DNA from: Ectothiorhodospira sp. BSL-9
GTDB taxonomy: Bacteria > Pseudomonadota > Gammaproteobacteria > Ectothiorhodospirales > Ectothiorhodospiraceae
Direction of reading: 5' to 3'
Assembly (NCBI RefSeq): GCF_001632845.1
Contig: NZ_CP011994.1
Location: 1,302,001 to 1,366,000 of the forward strand
Length of the DNA: 64,000 nt
Shown: positions 905 through 19,906 of the stretch, one piece after another
How positions within the stretch are numbered: position 1 is the first letter of the stretch
How the letters are laid out: every line of letters starts with the position of its first letter
Notes under the pieces: generated by a model
The model's input: the letters and a program-made list of their open reading frames with translations, nothing else
The model's database searches: none
What the model was told of the DNA's origin: nothing
Made by a program: the position numbers and the translations under genes

Positions 905-2905
905 ATGATAAATTTCCCCATCTTTGAAAATCTAGATGTCTCGGGCTATGGGCTTTATCCGGGCAGACCTGACGGGGAAGATGGCCTTCGGGTTGATTTT
1001 GCTCCTGGCCTAACGCTCATTCTTGGCACAAACGGTCTCGGGAAAACCACTCTTGTCACAATCCTGTATCGCCTACTCACCGGTCCTTGGGAAATCCCAG
1101 GTCTCGCGGATCGGGGCCCGCTTGGGAGTGTGAAACTTAAACCAACGAAGTTGAGCTCGTCTGCAAGGCGCATCTTTGCTAAGCGCGTCGCCGATGGTGC
1201 GGCTGGAGCCACGGCTACCTTAGCTATTCGGCTGGGTGATGATCGCCTAAGAATAGAGCGCCGGCTTAGTGATCTAGCGCTGATATCTTTTTTCGTCAAC
1301 GACGAAGATAAAGGTGCGACCGAAGACGCCTTCCAGAATGAGATTAAAGCCCGCGTTGGCGTTTGGTCTTTCGGCGACTGGATTCTCCTGCTGCGACACC
1401 TGATCTTTTACTTCGAGGATCGTCGTGCACTTGTGTGGGACGCTACCGCACAAAGACAGATTCTTCGGTTCCTTTTTCTTCAACCGAGCGTCGCCCAAGA
1501 ATGGACCGAGAGAGAGCGATCGATCCTCGCCTTGGACAGTCGGGTGCGCAACCTAGGTGCAGCGCTTTCCAAGGAGGAATCGACTCTTTCTGATGCCGAG
1601 TCTGCTGTCGCTGAGAGTGGCGGAGTGAGGGAGGAGTTAAAAACGCTCGGGGATCTACAGCAGATCGACCTGGCTAAGCGCCAAGAAGTTGATGAGGCGT
1701 TAGTTGACGTTGAGTCTCAGCGAGCTGAGGCGCGACTTAGGCTGTTAACATTTGAGCAGGAGCGCGAGTCATGTTTTCGCAACTACGAACGTGCGAAGCT
1801 ATCTGCCATTGAAGCAAAATTCCCAGAAAAATCTGAGACAGCACGCTACATACTTGCCCACCTGCTGACGGAGAGCGACTGTCTGGTTTGCGGTAATGTT
1901 GCCCCAGATGCCATGCAAGCTTATCAAGATCGGATAATCAATGCGCGGTGTGTCGTCTGCAATACTGATCTCTCGGGAACATCTGCGACAACTACACCAT
2001 CAGAGATGGCCTCTGCGCGTATTGAAAAGGCGCAGGCCGCACTACTAGGCGCCGAGAAAGCCCTGTCTGGCGCCCGCGAACACCTTGAGGCTGCCGAGAA
2101 AGATTACAAGACTATTCGCCGCGAGATTGAGTCACTGACTGCAGCCACCTCAAGACGAGCGCAAAAGATAGACCGTCTTGTTCGTAGTCTTCCACCAGAA
2201 GAAGCCGAATTGCACGAGCAACGGTCGGAACTTCGGGCAATGCGGGCGCGGGTATTATCACTGAAGTCGGGTCTGGCTGAGAAGAGGCGTGATTTCCACA
2301 GCTTCGTCGAGGAAGTGAATTTTCAAATCGTCAGGAAGAGTGAGCAAATTAAAACTACCTTCGATCAGTTCGCGTCAGGATTCTTGCTTGAGACATGTCA
2401 TCTCGTCTGGTCTCCGCAACGAGCACGGATAGGTCAGACAGGGGATTTCTTTGAATTTCCGGCATATGAACTTGAGATGACGGGTGCCGACTTTTCAGCA
2501 GCAGTGTCACGCACGGGCCCGGAGCAGGTATCGGAAAGTCAAAGAGAGTTTATAGACTTGGCGTTCCGTATGGCCCTAATAAAAGTATCTGCTTCTAACC
2601 AAGCAGGCAGTCTAGTAATCGATGCTCCAGAATCATCCTTGGATGCGGTTTTTGTGTCAAGAGCTGCAGATGTGCTTGGACGTTTCGCAGATCCAGAGAC
2701 GCAGAATAGACTTGTTATTACGTCCAATCTAGTAGAGGGTCGGCTAATTCCTGACCTCTTGCAAAAAACCACCACTACGGCTAATCGTAGAACCCGAGTA
2801 GTGGATCTTTTCGAACTCGCCCGACCAACCGCCGCAGTCCAGGTTCTTCGTACTGAATATGAGGACGTCCGCAACCGCTTACTAAACTCTGAGTTTAAGG
2901 AGTAG
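905..2905 (+). CDS. SMC/Rad50-like ABC ATPase with zinc hook (Lamassu LmuB / ABC-3C type)
   Basis: A 666-residue protein with the layout of a short SMC/Rad50 ATPase. Walker A is GTNGLGKTT (41-49). Coiled-coil arms rich in Glu, Ala and Arg (about 200-320 and 365-480) flank an apex carrying two CxxC pairs (326-329 and 349-352), a probable zinc hook. The ABC signature region is VSESQREFIDLAF (from 542). Walker B is SLVIDAPESSLD (569-580) with Glu576 as the likely catalytic base. Only 4 bases separate it from the next gene, whose ribosome-binding site AAGGAG lies inside this gene's last codons. Known: Lamassu/DdmC and ABC-three-component ATPases have this architecture and act as DNA sensors gating an effector. 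Inferred: the sensor ATPase of this operon. Start ATG at 905 follows GGAAG. Confidence 0.85.
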   Translation: MINFPIFENLDVSGYGLYPGRPDGEDGLRVDFAPGLTLILGTNGLGKTTLVTILYRLLTGPWEIPGLADRGPLGSVKLKPTKLSSSARRIFAKRVADGAAGATATLAIRLGDDRLRIERRLSDLALISFFVNDEDKGATEDAFQNEIKARVGVWSFGDWILLLRHLIFYFEDRRALVWDATAQRQILRFLFLQPSVAQEWTERERSILALDSRVRNLGAALSKEESTLSDAESAVAESGGVREELKTLGDLQQIDLAKRQEVDEALVDVESQRAEARLRLLTFEQERESCFRNYERAKLSAIEAKFPEKSETARYILAHLLTESDCLVCGNVAPDAMQAYQDRIINARCVVCNTDLSGTSATTTPSEMASARIEKAQAALLGAEKALSGAREHLEAAEKDYKTIRREIESLTAATSRRAQKIDRLVRSLPPEEAELHEQRSELRAMRARVLSLKSGLAEKRRDFHSFVEEVNFQIVRKSEQIKTTFDQFASGFLLETCHLVWSPQRARIGQTGDFFEFPAYELEMTGADFSAAVSRTGPEQVSESQREFIDLAFRMALIKVSASNQAGSLVIDAPESSLDAVFVSRAADVLGRFADPETQNRLVITSNLVEGRLIPDLLQKTTTTANRRTRVVDLFELARPTAAVQVLRTEYEDVRNRLLNSEFKE

Positions 2906-2909
2906 CTGG

Positions 2910-3581
2910 ATGGTGGGCCAAATCCGTATCGGTCCTGATGAGCACTTTGCATCGCTCGCGCGTCGCACGCGTTTACTCATCCTCTTGTCGACAGCGGAGG
3001 TGGCCGGTTTAACACCTATCCCTATCCTTAAGCTACATGCCTTCGCATATCTTTCAAATGTTCTGGCGCCCGTCTGGGAACTCCATCCACTTGACGGAAA
3101 AATCCTTAAACGACGCGGCGGTCCTTTTTATCCGCGGCTTCAGTTGGATTTAGATCGTCTCGTGGGATTTGGGCTCGCTCATATATCAGGCCTTGATCAC
3201 CTCGAAGATGAGGGCCACCGATGGCGACTTGAGGGTTCCTATCAATTGTATGCTCGGCTCGCCAACCCAGTTCTAAGGCAAATTCTGGAATTTCCAGAAG
3301 AAGATAGGACGCATAAGTTTATTCAAGAACTCGCTTATGCGCTGGCGGCGCTTGATGAAGCAGAGTTTTGCGGGGCTTTGGCCGAGGACGCCACATATGC
3401 GGACCCATTAATCGACTCTGGGAAAATCGTGGATTTCGCGGAGTGGCGGGATGTTAACTTTAGTGCGAATGCTGCTTCGAGCTTTGATCGTCTCGTAGCA
3501 AACGGACGAGGAATGACTTCGGGAGAGAAGATCCATCTCTATGTCCGTCACTTGCATCGGAAAATGGATGGCAGACGGTAA
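2910..3581 (+). CDS. winged-helix-like middle component of the SMC/nuclease operon
   Basis: A 223-residue soluble protein with no recognised enzyme motif. Residues about 40-100 (around KLHAFAYLSNVLAPVW and the following LDLDRLVGFGLAHI) read as a helix-rich winged-helix segment. The C-terminal half is mainly helical. Size and position between an SMC-like ATPase and an effector match the small middle components of ABC-three-component and Lamassu (LmuC/DdmB) systems, which bridge ATPase and effector. This role is inferred from context and fold pattern, not from a diagnostic motif. The gene is tightly coupled: 4 bases from the upstream stop and 1 base before the next ATG. Confidence 0.6.
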   Translation: MVGQIRIGPDEHFASLARRTRLLILLSTAEVAGLTPIPILKLHAFAYLSNVLAPVWELHPLDGKILKRRGGPFYPRLQLDLDRLVGFGLAHISGLDHLEDEGHRWRLEGSYQLYARLANPVLRQILEFPEEDRTHKFIQELAYALAALDEAEFCGALAEDATYADPLIDSGKIVDFAEWRDVNFSANAASSFDRLVANGRGMTSGEKIHLYVRHLHRKMDGRR

Positions 3582-3582
3582 C

Positions 3583-4671
3583 ATGATGGAAAAAAGGACT
3601 ACGCGCCTTGGCCCCTGGACCGATGAAGATCTCGCTTTAACTGCGACTGAGTTTGCCGGTGCTGGGGCAGATGAAGGGCTTCCTACCAAGGTTCGCTTCG
3701 TTCACGGTGTGACACGTGTAATTCGGCGCCGGAGGCTACAGCCGGAGGCGCATTCTGATGCTAAACGACCGGCCGTGTTCCTTCTGGAGCCGAATCCCAA
3801 GCTAGACATGGGTTGTTCTGGCATCAAGAGAGCCCCAATGCTCGATAATGGGCTGACTCAGGTTTCGGGGCGGATCTGGTTTGTAAGCGCCGTTCCTAAT
3901 GCAGGTAGATATGTTGATCTGGGATTTAATGATGACGATGATGCGCTATTTTGTTCCATCACTGAGGATTTTAAGCTAGGCCACGTGCCTGCCATAATCT
4001 TTGACCCGCGCACTTCAGCGCCAACCGTTCGATATTATGAATCTGGCTTGGAAGTGCCAGAATCCTGTCGCTCTTTCGAGCTTCAGGTAAACGATCTGTC
4101 GCTGACGCAAATATTCCAAGTTATCGATCATATCTACAGAACTTCCCTTGTTACGCCCGAGGCGCAGATTCATCCCGTCAAACTCTGGCGGGACAGTAGT
4201 CGATGTTTGCCAGATTCCCGCGCCGAATACATCGTTCAAGCGCAGCTGAAAGTTGGTTTAGCGACTGCATTCCCCAGTTGCATAATTCGCCATGAACAGG
4301 TTGGAGTGTCCGGACGACTTGATCTCGAGATAGAAGAGCCAAGCACTGAAGGTAACGGAGAGATTATTCGGCATGCTATATTGGAATTAAAGGTTTTACG
4401 AAGCCAAACTTCGAACGGGGTCGCGCAATCGGATTCAGAGATAAAACGCTGGGTGCAGTCGGGCCTGGACCAAGCGCTAGCGTACAGGGTTGACAGGCAG
4501 TGCCGGGCGGCTGCGTTGTGCTGCTTCGATATGCGTGCCGAAGACATTGGCGATGAACTGTGTTTTGCACATATTAAGCACGCTGCTGCTAAAGCCGATG
4601 TGGCTTTACGGCGTTGGTACATTTATTCAAGTTCAAAGAAGTATCGAAAGCAAATGTCTGATAATCGCTAG
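3583..4671 (+). CDS. PD-(D/E)XK-type nuclease, probable effector of the SMC operon
   Basis: With the ATG at 3583, 362 residues. The C-terminal half carries a PD-(D/E)XK signature: Glu215 in RAEYIVQAQL, Asp247 in GRLDLEI, the ELK core (Glu268, Lys270) in AILELKVLR, and the trailing QALAY (Gln297). The N-terminal 200 residues have no recognised motif and may be a docking or sensing domain. Upstream in-frame starts exist at 3541 and 3568. 3583 was chosen because it follows the previous stop by one base, fitting translational coupling. Its TAG (4669-4671) overlaps the convergent methyltransferase's stop within a shared palindromic CTAG. Known: Lamassu effectors are often nucleases of this fold but carry it N-terminally. 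Here it is C-terminal. Confidence 0.75.
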   Translation: MMEKRTTRLGPWTDEDLALTATEFAGAGADEGLPTKVRFVHGVTRVIRRRRLQPEAHSDAKRPAVFLLEPNPKLDMGCSGIKRAPMLDNGLTQVSGRIWFVSAVPNAGRYVDLGFNDDDDALFCSITEDFKLGHVPAIIFDPRTSAPTVRYYESGLEVPESCRSFELQVNDLSLTQIFQVIDHIYRTSLVTPEAQIHPVKLWRDSSRCLPDSRAEYIVQAQLKVGLATAFPSCIIRHEQVGVSGRLDLEIEEPSTEGNGEIIRHAILELKVLRSQTSNGVAQSDSEIKRWVQSGLDQALAYRVDRQCRAAALCCFDMRAEDIGDELCFAHIKHAAAKADVALRRWYIYSSSKKYRKQMSDNR

Positions 4672-5945
4672 CGCTTCGCTAATACGATTAAGCTTTCTGA
4701 GAGTTCAGCTCCCCCTCCCTGTTGAGCGGAGGCACGCATCGATCTGAAAGGATCGACCTTGACCACCTCATAACCTATATTCTCCGACAGCTCGGCAAGA
4801 ATTTCGCCAGTCTCGATCTTAATGTCCGAGTATCTGCTATCCCCTACGACCATCCAGACACTTCCACCAAGCGTGAGTGATGTATAGATTCCCTCAAGGA
4901 CGCCGACCATATCGCTGAAATATCCGCCGACCATCTCGGGAATCCAGCGGTTCCACAGTTTGGGGCGAGTACATTCAAGGCTTTCCATCGTTCTTAGCAA
5001 CTGCCCGCAGCCAACGGGAGGCGTTGGGTAGTCCCGTGCAATTTGAACGTGAGAGCATAAGGTAGAGGCGCGCAGCTCGCGATTTGCCGGGCTCTCCATA
5101 AGATATCCCAGCATCCACAGTTCTAAATTGTAAACGTCTGTGTAGTCAAAAGAGTTGGGATAGGGTGGCGAGAAGACAGCAATGTCGTAGGTTCCTGCAT
5201 CGGCGACTAGTCGGCGACAGTCCCCTCGGAGTATATCGTAGGTAGCACATGAGCGATTGCCGTAGCGGAATACCTCGCTCACGGCGCGTCTTGCGGCATT
5301 ACAGAATAGTTGATCAACCTCGCCTGGCGAGCGTGGCCTATCTTTCCAGCCGCGTCGATAACGACGCCCTTTCCCGTTGATTATGACATTGCTCGCTTGT
5401 ACCAAAATGCCGCCGAGCAGTACTCGAAAGAGTCTCCGGTGCGCTTCGTTCTCAAGGGAGTTGACGGCTAGTCGGAGAGCAGCGATCCTCTCTGCTATTT
5501 CCCTATCGAAAACCCATCGCTCGCCTAGTCCCGGCTCAATAAGCGTAGCTGGGGCACCGCAATAAATCTCGTCCAAGTCCAAGTCTAGGACGATTTTTTT
5601 TGATGCTCGAACGATTCGACCGAGATCAGTCGCCAAGCTGTCGGGGTCGTAGCTTTGGAGCTTGGCCTCGATGAGATCCGCGAGGAATGGGTTCACCTCA
5701 ACCATAACGGGATGCACGCCGAGGAACTGGCAAGCCAAGCCTGTCGTGCCGGAACCCCCAAAGGGATCCAAGCAACGCAGCACCGGACCGTTGGCACTGC
5801 TCACGGCTGTCTCCACCAACTCCGGCGCAAATGCTTCCTTAAAGTGTCTCCATCCTTGAAAGGGGAGCTCGGGAGCGCCAGAATTCGTACCGATCGCCGG
5901 TACCGTTCTGCCTTGAGTCCAATCTTGAAAAGTTATCTGACGCAT
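4668..5945 (-). CDS. DNA methyltransferase (N4-cytosine/N6-adenine type, SPPY motif)
   Basis: A 425-residue AdoMet-dependent DNA methylase. AdoMet-binding motif I is DPFGGSGTT (60-68), followed by a motif II acidic region (MVEVNPF). The catalytic motif IV SPPY is at 259-262 within SPPYPNSFDYTDVYNLELW. Motif I precedes motif IV, separated by a roughly 170-residue mostly helical segment that may hold target recognition. SPPY favours N4-cytosine, but N6-adenine is not excluded. The gene converges on the nuclease gene with overlapping stops (4668-4671). Inferred: it modifies host DNA so that the SMC/nuclease operon spares it. Alternatively it is an independent orphan methylase. The start ATG at 5945 lacks a strong ribosome-binding site. 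Confidence 0.85.
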   Translation of the reverse strand: MRQITFQDWTQGRTVPAIGTNSGAPELPFQGWRHFKEAFAPELVETAVSSANGPVLRCLDPFGGSGTTGLACQFLGVHPVMVEVNPFLADLIEAKLQSYDPDSLATDLGRIVRASKKIVLDLDLDEIYCGAPATLIEPGLGERWVFDREIAERIAALRLAVNSLENEAHRRLFRVLLGGILVQASNVIINGKGRRYRRGWKDRPRSPGEVDQLFCNAARRAVSEVFRYGNRSCATYDILRGDCRRLVADAGTYDIAVFSPPYPNSFDYTDVYNLELWMLGYLMESPANRELRASTLCSHVQIARDYPTPPVGCGQLLRTMESLECTRPKLWNRWIPEMVGGYFSDMVGVLEGIYTSLTLGGSVWMVVGDSRYSDIKIETGEILAELSENIGYEVVKVDPFRSMRASAQQGGGAELSESLIVLAKR

Positions 5946-5985
5946 TTTTTATTGCAAAGCCGCCCTATCTCGTCGCGAGGGAGTG

Positions 5986-8277
5986 TCAACAGCCGCAGTG
6001 CAGAGCCGTAGCGGTTCGGTTCGTCTTTGAGTTGGCAAATGTAATGCTCCCGGGCGGTGAGCGATAGCACTCAAGGATGACGATTTCGCGCACAGTGTCG
6101 GCAAGGCGGGTGGGGCGTTCCCGGCGTCGGGACTGGGCGTAATCACCCAGGACGCGCAGTTCGATGTCCGAGAACAGCAAGTCGGGCGGTAACTCCGGGG
6201 CCTCTCGCCCGAGCAGGGTCATGAGCATGACGCGCCAGGCGATGACCAGGCGGATGGCGATGGCGCGCTCCAGGCGTTCGGTACTGTGATGGCCGAGTTC
6301 GTCGATCTTGCAGCCCGATTTCAGGACCCGATGCCAATCCTCAATTCTCCAGCGCAAACGATACCACCGCAGCACCTCAGCGGCCTGCTCGGCCGAGGAG
6401 ACCGCGACCGTGGTAAGCACGAACCATTCGATGGGTTCCACCCCGGTGGGTGGGTCCAGTTCCACGGCATGGACCACCGTCAGCTCCACCGTGATGGGCT
6501 GATCGGCGCCGGCGGTTGTGCCACGGAGCGTCACCGGGCAGTAGCGCAGGGCCAGTTCCGCGGTGCGTGCTGTCCGGCCCAGGCGGGCGGGACGCTTGCT
6601 GGTCTTGGTGCGCAGGCTCTGTCCTTCCACCTCAAGCACCACCTGCCCGCAGATCGCGGTGTCGCGAACGGTATCGAACAGGCGCTGCCCATTGGCGAGC
6701 CGGCGATTGTGTTTGGCGCGGACCAGCAGACCCACCTGGGGGTGTTGCTGTTGTTCGGCATAGAGGTCGAACGCATCCGCCTCCCGATCGGCGACACTGA
6801 TCACCTGGGTGTCCGGGAGGGTGGCCGCCAGGGCCGCCGTGTCCCGCAGGCCAGCGATCCAGCGAAAGCTCTTCTTCTCTTCTTGCGTTGGCGCCTCGTC
6901 GCCTCGCGGCTGCGGGGCCTCGAACTGGGCGTGCAGCACCCCCAGGGGCAGCCCGTCCGCATTGACCGCGAGTGTCGAATGCAGGTGCAGACCCAGGCTC
7001 TGGGCCCCGGTCTGGTTGGTGCCAATGACGCCCAGTCCCCGGGTTTGTGGATGCGTGGTGAAGTTCAGATCCGTGCCATCCTGCAGGCACAGCACCGTCG
7101 CCTGCGCCTGCATGCGGCGCTGCGTGCGCTCGCGATGCGGTGCCAGGATATGCTCCGGGGTCACCTCCGACTCCGGTGGCTGGTCGATCAGCCGGTAGTA
7201 ACCCTTCACCGCCGGCCAGTCGTCCCGGGCCACGGCGGTAAAGGCACGCATCGGATCCTCGCCCTGGCGTTGGGCACTGTCCACCAATCGTTTCGTCAAG
7301 CGTTTGTCTCCCAAGGGCGCGCCCCCAAACTCATGCTCGGCCCAATGCGCCGCATCCAGGCCCTCGGCCAGCGCCAGCGGTCCATCGCGCCGCGCCGGGG
7401 CCGGACCCACGCCCAGACGCATGCGCCAATCGGGCTCCAGCTCATAGAGGTAGATCGCCTTACGCGTCTCGGCCGCGGCATGACTACGATCCTGACGACC
7501 CCGTCCGCAGGTGTCGCCCACGTGGCGCCAGTTCGAGGCCCGCAGACTCACACCCGAGTGTGGGGGCTCAATGAATGTCTCCACCAGCCAGGGACGATAC
7601 CCATGCAAGGCCTCGAAGTCATTACCCAGCCGCCGCAGGACCCGGCCCAGCACCCACGACGCCAGGTTCCGGCAAGCCATCCCCGGGCGCAGCAGAAAGC
7701 GGTTCAGCCCCACCACCCGATGGCGCTGCGCTTCGCGCAAGGCACGGTCCCAGCCGATCCATTCATCACGGGCGGCCAACTGCAGTGCCGAGGCCGCAAA
7801 CCCCAGCGCCCCCAGCCAGCCATGCGCCGAGCCGATCAGATAACGCATCTGCGCTCCCACCAGCGGCCCCATCCCGCGTGGGTGCTCGCGGGCCATCAAC
7901 TCGTTCCAGATCGCCCGATGCGCGGCATCATCCACGCGCACCAGGGCCAGATCCACCAGCTCAGTGACTTGGCTGCCCACACCCACGGGCGTCGCCACCG
8001 CCTCACCCAGTCGCCGCTCCACACGCCGCCCCGGCTGGGTGCGCGCCGCCGGCAAGGTCAGCCGTCCCGCGCGCTCCAGCGACCGCAGGGCCTTCAAGCA
8101 ACTCGCCCGCTGAAAACGGCCACGCGCGTCCACAAAGCCGAACGCGGCACACACCTGATCCGCAATCCCGGTGCGATGCGCCTCGGGACACTCCCGCATC
8201 AGGGCTTGCACCCGGGCAACACCCTCGGGTTCACTCAGCGTACGCTTGATCTGATTCTGTTCTCGCATGCCGGGCAA
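5986..8277 (-). CDS. IS4-family (Tn5-like) transposase fused to an N-terminal DruA (DUF4338) domain
   Basis: A 763-residue two-part protein. Residues about 100-300 match the DruA/DUF4338 pattern: YLIGSAHGWLGALGFAASAL, GWDRALREAQR, LGRVLRRLGNDFEALHGYRP, LVETFIEPP, SNWRHVGDTCGRGRQDR and KAIYLYEL. Residues about 310-740 are a Tn5-like transposase: LQDGTDLNF (first Asp), VISVADREAD (second Asp) and the YREK box YRLRWRIEDWHRVLK. DruA is known from Druantia phage defence, and DruA-like domains also occur in fused transposases. The C-terminus (VREIVILECYRSPPG onward) looks shorter and different from other Tn5-like proteins, so the end may be truncated or hybrid. No clear terminal inverted repeats were found. 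Confidence 0.85.
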   Translation of the reverse strand: MPGMREQNQIKRTLSEPEGVARVQALMRECPEAHRTGIADQVCAAFGFVDARGRFQRASCLKALRSLERAGRLTLPAARTQPGRRVERRLGEAVATPVGVGSQVTELVDLALVRVDDAAHRAIWNELMAREHPRGMGPLVGAQMRYLIGSAHGWLGALGFAASALQLAARDEWIGWDRALREAQRHRVVGLNRFLLRPGMACRNLASWVLGRVLRRLGNDFEALHGYRPWLVETFIEPPHSGVSLRASNWRHVGDTCGRGRQDRSHAAAETRKAIYLYELEPDWRMRLGVGPAPARRDGPLALAEGLDAAHWAEHEFGGAPLGDKRLTKRLVDSAQRQGEDPMRAFTAVARDDWPAVKGYYRLIDQPPESEVTPEHILAPHRERTQRRMQAQATVLCLQDGTDLNFTTHPQTRGLGVIGTNQTGAQSLGLHLHSTLAVNADGLPLGVLHAQFEAPQPRGDEAPTQEEKKSFRWIAGLRDTAALAATLPDTQVISVADREADAFDLYAEQQQHPQVGLLVRAKHNRRLANGQRLFDTVRDTAICGQVVLEVEGQSLRTKTSKRPARLGRTARTAELALRYCPVTLRGTTAGADQPITVELTVVHAVELDPPTGVEPIEWFVLTTVAVSSAEQAAEVLRWYRLRWRIEDWHRVLKSGCKIDELGHHSTERLERAIAIRLVIAWRVMLMTLLGREAPELPPDLLFSDIELRVLGDYAQSRRRERPTRLADTVREIVILECYRSPPGSITFANSKTNRTATALHCGC

Positions 8278-8571
8278 TGTAACCGCTCCGACATGGGTTT
8301 GTCCAGCGGGAGATGTGGGTACAGGGCGGTTCTAGGTGGTCCATCAGATTGAGCGTGTTCACGCAAGGGGCGCATACCATGTGTGGGCCGGGCCTCATCG
8401 GCAATGCCTGCCCGCGCTGGGATGCCATAGATTTTCATCAGCACGCAATTGGGCAAACTCATCTGTTCCTCACCGCAGAATCGCGTATGACCCAAAGAGC
8501 TGAGGATGAGGTGTCGCCAGCCAGTGAGGGGAGAAGTTCAGATAAACAAGGCACGGGTAGGTTTTGAGGTA
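8278..8571. other. non-coding stretch between DruA-IS4 gene and IS630 element
   Basis: No supported gene. The part next to 8277 should contain the upstream end of the IS4-like element. 8570-8571 is the TA target of the IS630 insertion. Short open frames on the minus strand here show no recognisable product. Confidence 0.4.
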
Positions 8572-11763: not shown

Positions 11764-14358
11764 ATGGCGTTTAAAAAACCTTCCACTCACGTTCCTGCCC
11801 CAGAGGGTCCGGACCGGCTTTTTCGAGACCTGCCGCGTCGCAAGCACGCCAGCTTATACGATCATCAAGGACAGGTGCTACGCACATATGTATCCGAGGC
11901 GCTAAATGCCTCAGATGTGGCTCTCCAGCTGCCTACCGGTAGCGGAAAGACGCTCGTTGGTCTGTTACTCGCCGAGTGGCGGCGGAGAAAGTATGGCGAG
12001 CGGGTGGTCTACCTTTGCCCAACTAGGCAACTTGTGGGTCAAGTATGCGATGAAGCGTCGTCAAAGTACGGTCTGTCTGTGCAGGCATTTACTGGCTCGG
12101 CTAGGAACTATCATCCTGATGCCAGATCGTTATACCTAGACGGAAAAGGTGTGGCTGTCACTACCTATAATAGTCTGTTCAATACCAATCCGTTCTTTGA
12201 TGACCCAGATATCATCCTCATTGATGATGCTCATACGGCTGAAAATTACATTGCTAGCCAGTGGACAGTCCGTATTCGCAATTTTGGGGAGGATGAAGGT
12301 CTATTCCACGCTGTCGCTGCCGTTCTCAGAAGCGTGCTGTCGGAGACCAGTTACAATCGCTTGATGGGTGGACATAATGGCGTCGACGCTATGATGTGGG
12401 TTGATAAGGTACCCAGTAATAAGTTAGCCACAATCGCTCAAGAACTTTGCTCTGTCGTTTCTGGAAGCGTAGGTGAGAGCGAGCAGCGGTATGCGTGGAG
12501 CATGCTGGCCGATCACCTTGTTGCATGCCAAGTGTACGTCGCATGTTCAGAGGTGATGATTCGGCCGCTGATCCCCCCGACGTGGAAGCACCGCCCCTTC
12601 GCTGAGGCAACGCAACGGATCTTCATGTCTGCGACCTTGGGAGCGGGTGGTGACTTAGAACGACTCACTGGCCGTGCCAATATTACCCGTCTGGCCATCC
12701 CTGAGGGGTGGGACCATCAAGGTATTGGTCGTCGCTTTTTCATTTTTCCAGAGAAGTCTCTGACAGAGGAAGAAACAGTGGACCTGCGCCGGTCGCTAAT
12801 GCGTACGGCTGGCCGTAGCCTAGTTCTGACGCCGACTAATGAGGCTGCTGCGGATGTCCGGGAAGATGTTATTTCAACTTTAGGCTTTCCCGTTTCCTTA
12901 GCAGAGGATCTTGAGTCGAGCCGAACACACTTTGTAGAAAAGAAAAATGCAGTTGCTGTGGTAGCAAACCGTTACGATGGCATCGACTTCCCAGATAATG
13001 ACTGCCGTCTACTTTTTGTTGAAGGTCTGCCGCGAGCTACGAATCTTCAAGAGCGCTTCCTCATGACTCGAATGGGTGCAAACCTATTATTTAATGACCG
13101 AGTACAGACCCGTGTTCTCCAGGCGGTGGGGAGATGTACCCGCGGTCTCAATGATTACTCTGCAGTCGTTGTCACTGGTGAGGATCTGCCCGCTTACCTC
13201 ACAGATCGGCGTAGGCGGAAACACTTCCATCCAGAGTTGCAAGCTGAGCTTGAGTTCGGAGTAGATCAATCCAGCGAGGTCGATGTGGACACATTCCGAG
13301 ACAATTTCCGTGTTTTCCTCGAGCATGAATCGGAATGGGAGGCGGCCAACGAGAACATATTGGAGGCTAGGGCCAGTGCGGTCCAAGAGCCCTTTCCCGC
13401 AATGGATCACTTGGCCTTGGTTGTGAAACACGAGATCACTTGGCAGCAAGCGATGTGGGGTCAGGACTACGCGATGGCATACGAAGCCGCCCGCGACGTA
13501 CTGGGTGGATTAAAGTCTCCCGAGCTGCGAGGATATCGCGCGCTGTGGCACTATCTTGCAGGGAGTGCTGCGGAACTTGCATCGGAGCACAACTACGTCG
13601 ATTTGAGCGCTCAGGCACGAACCCAATTCAGGATGGCGAAAGATGCGGCAAGAGGGATTCCCTGGCTCGTTGCGCTAGCGCATGGAAGCAGTGAACGCCC
13701 ATCAGCCGACGAACATCGCCAGACAACCGACCTGCTCCAGGTTGAGCACTTGGAGGGCTATCTAAACAAGCTCGGGACGGTGCACAACCGCGCTTTTGCG
13801 GCACGGGAGAAGAAAATCCGTGACGGACTCCGCAGTGGGGCGCTGTTTGAGCAGGCACAGGTGCTGCTTGGCCAACATCTTGGCTTCATGGCGGGTAAAC
13901 GGGAGGCTGATGCTTCCCCTGATCCATGGTGGCAAATTGGCGATATAGTGATCGTTTTCGAGGATCATGCTAATGCGGACGCAACCACTGCGGTAATTGA
14001 TGCGACGAAGGCGCGCCAAGCGGCATCACATCCAGATTGGATACGGCATCATGTGCCCGGTGCCGCAGACGCTCGAATTATTCAATCTGTACTTGTAACA
14101 CCAGCCAAGAAGGCAAGGCCGGGAGCGATGCCACATCTTGTGCGGGTAGCCTATTGGGAGCTAGGTGAGTTTCGAAGTTGGGCAGAATCAGTCTTGGAGA
14201 CAGTCAGGCGATTGCGCCGGAGCTTTCGCGAGCCCGGAGACCTGGCGTGGAGAGCTGATGCTGCAAGTGCACTTGCAGAGGCGAAGGCAGATGCGACAGG
14301 ACTAAGTGGGTGGCTTGAGACACGGCTCGCGCGCGATCATCTAGAGGAAACGCCTTAG
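11764..14358 (+). CDS. superfamily 2 DEAD/DEAH-type helicase, island cargo
   Basis: 864 residues. Helicase motifs: Walker A LQLPTGSGKT (54-63); Ia-like VVYLCPTRQL; motif II IDDAH (153-157, a DDAH variant of DEAH); motif III FMSATL (about 288-293); an XPD/DinG-like IV/V block VVANRYDGIDFPDNDCRLLF; and motif VI LQAVGRCTRG (about 450). The last 350 residues are helix-rich with no recognised domain. Such helicases occur in many defence modules, for example as partners of small nucleases, but no partner gene is adjacent. It stands alone between a MITE-like element and a transposase fragment. Inferred: a defence-related DNA or RNA translocase, possibly separated from its partner by IS activity. Role unknown. 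Confidence 0.75.
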   Translation: MAFKKPSTHVPAPEGPDRLFRDLPRRKHASLYDHQGQVLRTYVSEALNASDVALQLPTGSGKTLVGLLLAEWRRRKYGERVVYLCPTRQLVGQVCDEASSKYGLSVQAFTGSARNYHPDARSLYLDGKGVAVTTYNSLFNTNPFFDDPDIILIDDAHTAENYIASQWTVRIRNFGEDEGLFHAVAAVLRSVLSETSYNRLMGGHNGVDAMMWVDKVPSNKLATIAQELCSVVSGSVGESEQRYAWSMLADHLVACQVYVACSEVMIRPLIPPTWKHRPFAEATQRIFMSATLGAGGDLERLTGRANITRLAIPEGWDHQGIGRRFFIFPEKSLTEEETVDLRRSLMRTAGRSLVLTPTNEAAADVREDVISTLGFPVSLAEDLESSRTHFVEKKNAVAVVANRYDGIDFPDNDCRLLFVEGLPRATNLQERFLMTRMGANLLFNDRVQTRVLQAVGRCTRGLNDYSAVVVTGEDLPAYLTDRRRRKHFHPELQAELEFGVDQSSEVDVDTFRDNFRVFLEHESEWEAANENILEARASAVQEPFPAMDHLALVVKHEITWQQAMWGQDYAMAYEAARDVLGGLKSPELRGYRALWHYLAGSAAELASEHNYVDLSAQARTQFRMAKDAARGIPWLVALAHGSSERPSADEHRQTTDLLQVEHLEGYLNKLGTVHNRAFAAREKKIRDGLRSGALFEQAQVLLGQHLGFMAGKREADASPDPWWQIGDIVIVFEDHANADATTAVIDATKARQAASHPDWIRHHVPGAADARIIQSVLVTPAKKARPGAMPHLVRVAYWELGEFRSWAESVLETVRRLRRSFREPGDLAWRADAASALAEAKADATGLSGWLETRLARDHLEETP

Positions 14359-17068: not shown

Positions 17069-18874
17069 TTAGCTATGCCCGTGACAGACACTTGGGAGAC
17101 ATACTCGGATAATAGTATCTAGTGCTCTGCTCTCATTCAACCGCCCTCCACCTCCTTGCTTGGACCTTCCAATATAGGAGTGCTTCCATGGCTCGGCCAT
17201 CGATACTCCCGCGAACTCAATCAGTTCGTCGCAGGGCAGCCATTTGCCGCGATTGAGAGCCGCAAGTTCGAGAAGCTTAAGCGTGGCAGTTTCGAAGAAC
17301 TCCTTAGAGACGGTATATACAAGTGCCTTGCGTCCGGCCTCGTTATACCTAACTTCGATCTCAAGCCAATAGATGGTTTCATCCCCAAGCTGTAATTCAC
17401 AAACTAAGGCGCCACGTGGCCTTCTTTCCTGTCTTTCGATGTAGCCAAAGGGAATGAATCGTTTGCTGTCTTTGGTCCTTAGCGGAAAGTGCCAGAGCGG
17501 GAGGGAATCGATATGAAGTTGTGGTCTAGGATGCGGGATGGCAGACCAGGATTGTATTGCTCCAGTTCGCTGGAGCATTTCAAACATATCGATGACTTCA
17601 GAGAAGCGCTGACTTACATCGCGGTTCCGCATTGATGATGCGGAGTAGGCGGATGCGCCTGAGTCAGTATCGCCCGACCAACTGATACCCGGCGATACAC
17701 CTCCTACCTCAGGACCCGTGTCGCCGTTTGAGCGTGTTTCATAAATAAAACTCTCATCTTTGGGCTTCCGGGTCCACGCAGGAAGATTACCCCAAAGGAC
17801 TGATGGCGGGGTAAACTTGGTGAGCGGGGCAGTCTCAATTGGGTCTTCTTGAGAGTTGGTGTCAATGAGGCCGTTGTTATCAGGAGGCGGGGGAGTGCCA
17901 GGTTTGCTGTAGGGCTTATCCTTGGCAATAGGCGTCTGAGTTTCGCCTTTCATGCCGCTATTGTCTCGGTGGATTACCAATGCCGGCGCGTCGGGCCAGT
18001 CCATGGCAACAATATTTAGGGCCAAGAACTTTGGTGGCTCCCCTTTTAACCATAAGCCCCTGGCGCTGAGTCGGAGTCTATAGAGATTGAAGGGAATAGG
18101 GGCATTCAAGTACCCGGCGCCTTCGTCTTTCAGTAGGTGCGTGTAGATGCCATTTGCGGCGGTGATGCCGGTTTCCGAGATACAGAGGTTGGCCAGATTA
18201 TTGGCAAAAATATCACCTATCGTGCGACGTAACGTGATACCCCAGCGACCGTCCGCAAGTTTGCCGGTCCCTTCCGGGGCGATCACCTGGGTTTTAGTTA
18301 AATCCCAGGGGCCGGAAGTTAGGGCTAGTGCGATATGGGAGTGTGGGGCATACATCGTTCGGAACACTTCGTGACAAGGAATGACTATCACGAAATCAGC
18401 TGATTCAACAACAACTACTTGGCTTTTCCCCGCTACGGCGAGGTCTCCGAGGTGGTAATCACGCCGATTAATGGCTCGGTATGGGTATTGCCACCAGCTG
18501 GGTTTGCTGGGCAATTCGTCGGAGATGCTTCGTACGGACAGAGTAAATTCGTGAAGATCGAATCGAGCTTGGCGCCAGGGTATGTTTGCGACTTCGATGC
18601 CATTCTGGAAAACGAGCCCAAGTGGGAGGCGAGGTATAAACCCGGTGAATACAGGGATGGGTGGGTGCATTACAGGGTTTTTCGGAGCGGCGATCTCATG
18701 TGGATTGGCGTTCCGCAGGTCGCCAAGGGATATATCCAGTGGGCTTAAGAATACCTCCACCCCGGGAGTGGCGGTGCCACCCTTTGGTGCGTGGTAGCGA
18801 TCCACCCACCGCACCCACCATAGTCGCCCATCCATGGGAAATTCCCGAATCCTATCAATCGTCTGGCCTGCCAC
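17069..18874 (-). CDS. tnsE: TnsE-family Tn7-like transposition protein (probable)
   Basis: 601 residues starting at GTG 18874 with AAGGGA upstream. An N-terminal beta-rich part (GRLWWVRWVDRYHAPKGG) is followed by a low-complexity Pro/Asp/Ser linker (about 330-415). A C-terminal domain (about 418-590) shares its pattern with Tn7 TnsE: QRFSEVIDMFEML like NRFAAFDELLSIL, then FGYIERQ ending in YWLEIEV like VGVQRN ending in VLLEVD. TnsE directs Tn7 to replicating, conjugating DNA via the sliding clamp. Supporting context: the gene is the first inside a 5'-TGT terminus in comM, reading inward. tnsABCD-like genes are not in the window. If not TnsE, it is an unknown island-end protein. Confidence 0.58.
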   Translation of the reverse strand: MAGQTIDRIREFPMDGRLWWVRWVDRYHAPKGGTATPGVEVFLSPLDISLGDLRNANPHEIAAPKNPVMHPPIPVFTGFIPRLPLGLVFQNGIEVANIPWRQARFDLHEFTLSVRSISDELPSKPSWWQYPYRAINRRDYHLGDLAVAGKSQVVVVESADFVIVIPCHEVFRTMYAPHSHIALALTSGPWDLTKTQVIAPEGTGKLADGRWGITLRRTIGDIFANNLANLCISETGITAANGIYTHLLKDEGAGYLNAPIPFNLYRLRLSARGLWLKGEPPKFLALNIVAMDWPDAPALVIHRDNSGMKGETQTPIAKDKPYSKPGTPPPPDNNGLIDTNSQEDPIETAPLTKFTPPSVLWGNLPAWTRKPKDESFIYETRSNGDTGPEVGGVSPGISWSGDTDSGASAYSASSMRNRDVSQRFSEVIDMFEMLQRTGAIQSWSAIPHPRPQLHIDSLPLWHFPLRTKDSKRFIPFGYIERQERRPRGALVCELQLGDETIYWLEIEVRYNEAGRKALVYTVSKEFFETATLKLLELAALNRGKWLPCDELIEFAGVSMAEPWKHSYIGRSKQGGGGRLNESRALDTIIRVCLPSVCHGHS

Positions 18875-18957
18875 TGGTTATCCCTTACGGTTGGCGAGGG
18901 ATAACTGTGCCAGAAACCCATAAATTTGAGTAGTAGGCTTAATTCGTGGAATTCACA
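18875..18957 (-). repeat. terminus of the comM-inserted Tn7-like element
   Basis: Read on the minus strand, the element begins TGTGAATTCCACGAATTAAG at 18957, immediately after comM codon 286. A 5'-TGT start is the Tn7-family hallmark. The 83 bases to the GTG of the first gene must contain transposase-binding sites and a promoter. I cannot delimit individual binding sites. The expected 5-bp target copy on the comM side would be GCCAC (18958-18962), but its partner lies outside the window. Confidence 0.7.
18877..18905 (-). promoter_or_regulatory. 9-bp inverted repeat overlapping the ribosome-binding site of the island-end gene
   Basis: GTTATCCCT (18877-18885) and AGGGATAAC (18897-18905) are perfect complements 11 bases apart. 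On the coding (minus) strand the proximal arm contains the AAGGGA ribosome-binding site for the GTG at 18874. It could be an operator for autoregulation by a transposition protein, or an RNA hairpin that hides the ribosome-binding site. Confidence 0.5.
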
Positions 18958-19815
18958 GCCACCTCCCACCAGGGCCACCCCCGAGGCCGTGTGATGGGGG
19001 GCTCTGAATGGCCGCGTGCGCCACTGACGGGTGTTGATCCCCTGCTGGCTGATGGCGTGCAGGGCGGCGGTTTCCAGGGCCTCGGTCTCGCTCATGGGGG
19101 GCAGCAACCCCGGCAGGCGACTGGCCAGCATGGTCTTGCCGGTGCCCGGCGGGCCGATCATCAGCAGGTGATGGGCGCCGGAGGCGGCCGCCTCCAGGGC
19201 GCGTCGGGCCTGGGGCTGGCCGCGCACGTCCGCCAGGTCGGGCAGGGCGGACCCATGATCATCATCGGTGCCCTCGGGTTGGCGCGGATGACTCTCCAGG
19301 GGCGCATCGCCACACAGATGCCCGCACACCTCCAGCAGGTGACCGGCAGCGATCACGTCCACGTCCTCCACCAGCACCGCCTCGTCCGCATCCCCCCGGG
19401 GCAGGACCAGCGTGCGCCCCGCCTGGTGGGCGGCCATGGCCGCCGGCAGCACGCCGCGCACCGGGCGCAGCTCGCCGGTGAGGCCCAGCTCGCCCAGGAA
19501 TTCGCTGTTTCGGATGGAGGCCATGGGGATCTGACCCGAGGCGGCCAGGATGCCCAGGGCAATGCCCAGATCAAAGCGGCCGCCGTCCTTGGGCAGGTCG
19601 GCGGGGGCCAGGTTCACGGTGATGCGCCGGGCGGGAAAGTCGAAGCCGCTGGTCTGCAGTGCCGCCCGCACCCGGTCACGGCTCTCCTTGACCGCCGCTT
19701 CGGGCAGACCCACCATGGCAAAACTGGGCAGGCCGTTGGCCAGGTGCACCTCGATATGCACCGGAGGCGCCTGGATACCCAGCTGCGCCCGGCTGGCGAT
19801 GACAGCAAGATTCAT
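18958..19815 (-). pseudogene. comM: comM (Mg-chelatase-like AAA+ helicase), N-terminal part interrupted by the island
   Basis: The start at 19815 gives MNLAVIASRAQLG, the normal ComM N-terminus. Residues 1-165 form the ChlI-like domain. The AAA+ domain begins near 195 with Walker A GPPGTGKTM (221-229). Coding stops matching at Gly286 (FRAPHHTASGVALVGGG), where the transposon begins. Intact ComM is about 500 residues, so the Walker B and sensor parts are separated. ComM is a hexameric branch-migration helicase used in natural transformation. Its disruption should lower integration of transforming DNA. Confidence 0.93.
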
Positions 19816-19906
19816 GGATCCTTCCATCGGGTCTCGTCCTTGGAGACAGCAGACTATATGCGGTGGCCCGGCGGTGGCAAGTGCCGCCGCCGGACTTGTG
19901 CCGCCC

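Follow-up and report, generated by a model that had tools for sequence, protein, structure and literature searches.

An IS50-like insertion sequence joining a DruA-type (DUF4338) domain of predicted GNAT fold to a Tn5-type transposase

A DUF4338 (DruA-type) domain and a Tn5-like transposase are encoded as one chain in the window, i.e., in the whole 64,000-nucleotide stretch of Ectothiorhodospira sp. BSL-9 DNA analysed here. We consider it likely that the gene belongs to a decaying IS50-like copy in which a Tn5-type transposase is combined with a GNAT-fold DUF4338 module acting in transposition. That the element is an IS4-family (IS50-like) insertion sequence is in our view very likely. The activity of DruA has been an open question ever since Druantia was described, and small mobile elements that carry DUF4338 and a well-understood transposase in one chain offer a clean genetic and biochemical handle on it.

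The fused gene and its product

The fused ORF lies on the minus strand (8277-5986; window positions 5986-8277) and is open for 763 codons. Its first listed start is TTG at 8277. Relatives begin at a methionine equal to residue 4, encoded here by ATG at 8268, and the natural protein is probably 760 aa long, starting at this ATG.

The earlier note had made its proposal depend on DUF4338 similarity within residues 100-300. Such similarity was found: DruA (PF14236) matches residues 85-267 with 82.1 bits (Pfam cut-off 27). Further Pfam matches are Tnp_DNA_bind (PF14706, 38 bits, residues 312-366) and DDE_Tnp_1 (32.9 bits, residues 486-679). NCBIfam assigns the ORF to the IS4 family transposases (NF033590, 293.9 bits, cut-off 160), and in the PDB residues 309-686 match the Tn5 transposase (E 6e-37). 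The single chain joining DruA and a Tn5-like transposase, as claimed in the same note, is real according to Pfam, NCBIfam and full-length homologues. A chance run-on of two ORFs was considered and ruled out by the full-length fused homologues and the co-inheritance of the halves.

All parts of the protein are encoded on the minus strand. The N-terminal segment (residues 1-84, 8026-8277) forms four helices in the model and may be winged-helix-like. It is followed by the DUF4338/DruA domain (residues 85-288, 7414-8025), the Tn5-type transposon-end-binding domain PF14706 (residues 309-366, 7180-7353) and the RNase H-like DDE domain (residues 367-686, 6220-7179). The DDE domain has its DDE and YREK residues complete: the triad consists of D400, D497 and E646, and the Y-(2)-R-(3)-E-(6)-K signature of Y639, R642, E646 and K653. 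Residues 687-735 (6073-6219) correspond to the start of the Tn5 dimerisation region. In the model of the full-length protein, residues 304-745 superimpose on Tn5 with Z 41, and residues 105-294 on phage Mu Mom with Z 13.8.

The window copy and its decay

The earlier note had called the transposase intact, and in this it was mistaken. Aligned with intact copies of its own element, the window copy shows homology up to about position 6074, beyond which the residues are unrelated. The last ~28 codons (5986-6072, minus strand) are decayed and the C-terminal dimerisation end is gone: Dimer_Tnp_Tn5 scores 12.7 bits in the window protein (Pfam cut-off 26.7) versus 30.2 bits in an intact relative.

At the left end, the terminal inverted repeat CCGCCCTGTACCCACA (8314-8329, read on the minus strand from 8329) matches CTGCCCTATACCCACA of intact copies. 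The adjacent 8-bp target flank (8330-8337), ACCTAGAA on the minus strand, agrees with the preference for TAG-centred targets seen in intact copies, and no duplicate of this flank is present at the right end of the copy. A weak match, CCGCCCTATC (5960-5969, plus strand, direct reading), is a possible remnant of the right terminal repeat. The left end is thus intact and most of the right terminal repeat is gone. As both the Tn5-like dimerisation end and most of that repeat have been lost, the window copy is probably dead.

The window copy is the sole full-length one in the host genome, where otherwise only a 53-residue fragment (90% identity) was found, and no second copy of the lost right end was detected elsewhere in that genome. 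Other genomes of the host genus hold at most small remnants of the fused element. Definition of the element ends by comparison with empty sites, as the earlier note had proposed, succeeded for a related copy in a closed genome (see below) but not for the window copy, whose flank is absent from all further genomes of its genus that were searched.

Intact relatives are mobile

Relatives were collected by searching bacterial and archaeal genomes with a query alignment built from two fused proteins; the search also used a transposase pattern and is therefore biased towards fusions. It yielded about 30 full-length fusions (35-68% identity). The MAGs that carry them are labelled as Proteobacteria, Acidobacteria, Chloroflexi and others; on short contigs such taxonomy labels need caution. 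The fused IS family comprises about 35 loci across several phyla, and terminal repeats are present in many relatives. One homologue of the window protein is 68% identical to it through both halves.

The closed genome G756, from the same bacterial family as the window, contains five copies with open frames of 784 codons (82-83% identity), and a protein search has also revealed split and broken copies in it. Nine copies were aligned: eight measure 2,422-2,424 bp, and the ninth, L177, is shortened to 1,826 bp. The full-length copies have matching terminal repeats. Perfect 8-bp flanking duplications border six of the nine copies (GCGTAGGG, GGGTAGCA, GGCAAGCC, GGCAAGCG, GTATAGCC and ACCTAGGT); one more flank pair matches at 7 of 8 positions, and there is none for L174 and the reduced L177. 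The target sites share a central (T/A)AG. When the two flanks of one copy are joined, the resulting sequence matches three relatives without a break (93, 93 and 88% identity); these relatives thus show the empty site. The relatives of the window element are multi-copy insertion sequences at scattered sites, and the intact ones are precise mobile elements with the cut-and-paste behaviour of an IS50-like element (PMC2266710).

A 4-bp target duplication (CTAG), first suggested by the MAG copies, was superseded by the 8 bp seen in the closed genome. Where the two flanks of a MAG copy are unequal, repeats may have been joined incorrectly.

Two identical G756 copies, L175 and L176, carry the same frameshift at residue ~288, which splits them into DUF4338 and transposase ORFs. 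This suggests that the two-gene form may have moved.

No phage record with this DUF4338 domain was found at E 1e-5. Only two plasmid records contain it, both from Candidatus Thiodictyon: one has an IS91-type insertion between the DUF4338 gene and an IS4 transposase, and the other carries a DUF4338-ISAs1 fusion annotated as an ISAs1 transposase.

Comparison with IS50 and a possible frame switch

The family resembles the IS50 subgroup (Tn5) in its end-binding and DDE domains, DDE/YREK residues, 5'-CT ends, modelled transposase structure and 8-bp duplication, the IS50 subgroup of IS4 being known for target duplications of 8-9 bp (PMC2266710). It differs by the addition of a 300-residue DUF4338 module and by its length (~2.42 kb versus 1.35-1.55 kb for IS50).

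A further difference concerns the reading frame. Absence of a frameshift is a hallmark of IS4 (PMC2266710), whereas a frame switch at an A8-A10 run is seen in many of the fused elements. In at least 12 fused relatives (L041, L042, L044-L046, L048-L052, L054, and L062) the zero frame stops just past this run, the only one of its kind in the gene and located at its 3' end, and the conserved C-terminal dimerisation segment goes on in another frame. Judging by this arrangement, programmed slippage at the run is probable in this IS family. The arrangement fits transcriptional slippage or frameshifting, by which two proteins would be made, only one of them bearing the dimerisation end. Such switching is not used by the window copy or its closest relatives, which are in frame.

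The two halves evolve together

Between pairs of relatives, dN/dS of the DruA half is 0.05-0.23, much as in the transposase half, and purifying selection on the two is thus similar. The window copy and its nearest MAG relative give 0.12 in the DruA half and 0.18 in the transposase half. Where dS is high, as in this last pair, the values are rough. Distances in the two halves are tightly correlated (Mantel r 0.935, 0 of 5000 permutations). Sequence comparison thus points to halves that are inherited and constrained together and are not shuffled.

The same DUF4338 type accompanies other transposases

The transposon-type DUF4338 is also found fused to ISAs1 transposases (NF033564, 228 bits) and to another IS4 type (NF033592, 169 bits). 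It is encoded just upstream of ISKra4 transposase genes, 4 bp apart or overlapping (NF033572, 209-359 bits), and adjoins an IS66 transposase at one locus. In nearly all mappable loci DUF4338 sits upstream of the transposase. The ISAs1 and ISKra4 elements differ from the window element in the family of their transposases; the N-terminal helical segment is present in the IS4- and ISKra4-associated relatives and missing from most ISAs1 fusions. As this DUF4338 type recurs with at least four transposase types, the connection with transposition suggested by the earlier note is well supported. A repeated association of DUF4338 with transposases is not described in the literature searched, which did not extend to ISfinder or to most subscription papers; novelty is unproven.

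In an unbiased survey PF14236 was present in 17 of 369 genomes of the class and in 17 of 398 of the phylum (the genome of the window counted in each). Among the loci concerned are canonical DruA, transposon-type domains accompanied by a partner transposase and cases in which the profiles used detected no partner; by these profiles, about a quarter of DUF4338 loci have no partner transposase. A 392-aa transposase-like ORF without Pfam or NCBIfam matches is located upstream of the DUF4338 gene at L020 (2310-3485, minus strand); near relatives of this DUF4338 gene occur at L086 and L112. Four other loci (L138, L139, L145, and L017) encode proteins of ~700-1,300 aa in which DUF4338 is interrupted by an insertion, one of them with matches to AAA/STAND-type ATPases. 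Possibly, these proteins resemble the DndF fusions described in PMC10853773.

Predicted GNAT fold of the DUF4338 domain

The model of residues 1-301 is of good quality (mean pLDDT 91.4; 91 for the domain). Phage Mu Mom is its first PDB match by Foldseek (E 2e-6) and its top match by VIA-align (Z 13.7, rmsd 3.6, 170 residues), which makes it the nearest solved structure. Many GNAT acetyltransferases follow with Z up to 12.6, Mom being ahead by only ~1. No weight is given to families that are missing from these fold lists. Among the substrates acylated by GNAT proteins, DNA is less frequent than proteins and small molecules. With Mom and other GNATs at Z 11-14, structure prediction identifies the DUF4338 domain as a GNAT domain. 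DUF4338 was also labelled a GNAT domain in a published analysis (PMC10853773), and the earlier description of DruA as a domain of unknown activity no longer applies to its fold. The DndF fusion of that analysis likewise carries the same Pfam domain as an N-terminal add-on, considered GNAT by its authors, but its partner is a defence NTPase, whereas the partner in the window is a transposase.

According to work on jumbo phages, members of the Mom family transfer an acyl group from CoA onto N6 of adenine (PMC7824862). Mom itself is the product of a separate phage gene, unjoined to a transposase, and a PDB sequence search with the profile of the DUF4338 domain returned nothing significant, Mom included. 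Pfam Mom matches in three relatives reach 17.5-18.8 bits, below the cut-off of 27.1. A weak profile-to-Mom alignment (hhalign, E 0.025) places the conserved S207, D237, Y245 and N249 of a short motif on Ser, Asp, Tyr and Asn of Mom; we take these Mom residues to be catalytic and treat the correspondence as a lead only.

H132, R193, S207, E233 and N249 are nearly invariant across all transposase types; K273 is also nearly invariant. In the subclade of the window copy, which includes its nearest MAG relative and the closed-genome copies, Leu replaces Tyr245 and Glu replaces Asp237, whereas most other relatives have Tyr245. Because of these replacements catalysis appears doubtful in this subclade and may have been lost; constraint nonetheless persists, and the domain may serve for binding instead of catalysis.

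Relation to Druantia

Canonical DruA, about 400 aa long and part of a multi-gene defence system, shares the Pfam family (PF14236) and the GNAT-type core with the domain described here. The distance between them is considerable. PADLOC gave no match for the window protein, whereas control canonical DruA proteins scored 250-540 bits with DruA1. Conversely, the transposon-type profile scored 28-49 bits for canonical Druantia DruA and 200-388 bits for the transposon types. Since the domain of the window is so far from true Druantia DruA in these profile comparisons, a role in transposition is favoured over one in defence.

In a quick tree, DUF4338 clades largely track the transposase family, and a branch of ~2.7 changes per site, drawn over a poor alignment across the gap, separates the transposon-type from Druantia DruA. 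Because of this poor alignment the tree cannot show which type descends from the other, nor whether recruitment took place. The phylogeny that the earlier note had called for thus gives no direction between the two types, and the suggestion that the fusion may show how DruA was recruited into defence finds no support, given the very long Druantia branch and the low cross-profile scores.

Proposed role and alternatives

The following scheme appears to us the most plausible. The window would hold one decaying ~2.4 kb copy of an IS4-family (IS50-like) element encoding a single protein, in which a Tn5-type cut-and-paste transposase is preceded by a module made of a putative winged-helix-like segment and a GNAT-fold DUF4338 domain. 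What the partner transposases have in common is hardly more than their action on DNA ends and a target. The module therefore most likely acts either on the DNA or on a factor present in the transposition complex. Through it, the element ends or the target could receive a Mom-like modification that depends on acyl-CoA, and in subclades such as that of the window it would provide recognition only; as a result, transposition would be raised or an intermediate protected. That DNA is the direct substrate is a tentative part of the scheme, to which we give somewhat less than an even chance. If the module does acylate DNA, a modification step would be built into transposition. We also speculate, while considering it rather unlikely, that bacterial DDE transposons in general make use of a Mom-like GNAT accessory, added separately to IS4, ISAs1 and ISKra4 transposases, which writes or reads an acyl mark on DNA to direct or protect transposition, Druantia DruA being its distant cousin reused for defence.

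Instead of DNA, the GNAT domain might acetylate protein (the transposase, a nucleoid protein or another host factor) and tune transposition with no DNA modification. Behind Mom, the list of structural neighbours consists mostly of enzymes that acetylate proteins or polyamines (RimI, NatF, SpeG), with Z only 1-2 lower, and fusion in cis would suit self-modification. However, the partners of the domain include no fewer than four unrelated types of transposase, and at ISKra4 it is encoded as a protein of its own, which makes a conserved target on the transposase unlikely; a shared host factor is possible, and we rate protein acetylation as a whole as unlikely, if conceivable. Catalysis might also be dispensed with altogether, the GNAT scaffold and the helical segment serving as a recognition or assembly domain that finds the long ends or the TAG-centred target. 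The subclade of the window, lacking Tyr245 and Asp237 and still constrained (dN/dS 0.12), speaks for such a module, as does the common (T/A)AG of the target sites. Near-invariance of H132, S207, R193, E233 and N249 across transposase types goes beyond the needs of a scaffold, and most ISAs1 fusions lack the N-terminal segment, so purely non-catalytic recognition seems to us a possibility of low probability.

The DUF4338 gene could also be cargo fused by chance, with no part in transposition: the link to transposition is drawn here from sequence and models, and the frameshift in two identical G756 copies shows the DruA and transposase ORFs split. Recurrent joining to several transposase types, the upstream position in nearly all mappable loci and the tight co-inheritance and equal constraint of the halves make a passenger quite improbable. 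Still less credible, to the point of being very hard to maintain, is the view that a transposon has taken up a Druantia DruA which continues to act against phages in a defence island. The shared Pfam family name and the neighbouring methyltransferase, LmuB-like ATPase and PDC-S28 helicase would agree with it. It is contradicted by the missing PADLOC match, the long branch that parts the two DruA types, the scattered multi-copy nature of the relatives and the lack of DruB-E beside the ORF (PADLOC on six neighbouring ORFs, Pfam only on the adjacent IS630 and IS66 genes).

Genes around the element

The earlier note had placed the ORF in an island that already holds another defence cassette. A methyltransferase, a weakly LmuB-like ATPase and a candidate defence helicase are indeed present, but no complete known system emerges from them. 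The stretch 908-5945 contains an SMC-like ATPase (LmuB-like, 62 bits), two ORFs of no recognised family and an N6/N4 DNA methyltransferase, and is possibly an unnamed defence operon beside the element. A DEAD-type helicase of the PADLOC candidate defence family PDC-S28 (347 bits) is encoded at 11764-14358 on the plus strand.

A ComM/YifB-like gene (18745-19827, minus strand) is apparently cut after its Walker-containing half and adjoins an ORF of 601 aa (17069-18874). The island may have been inserted in comM, a known integration site of Tn7-like elements.
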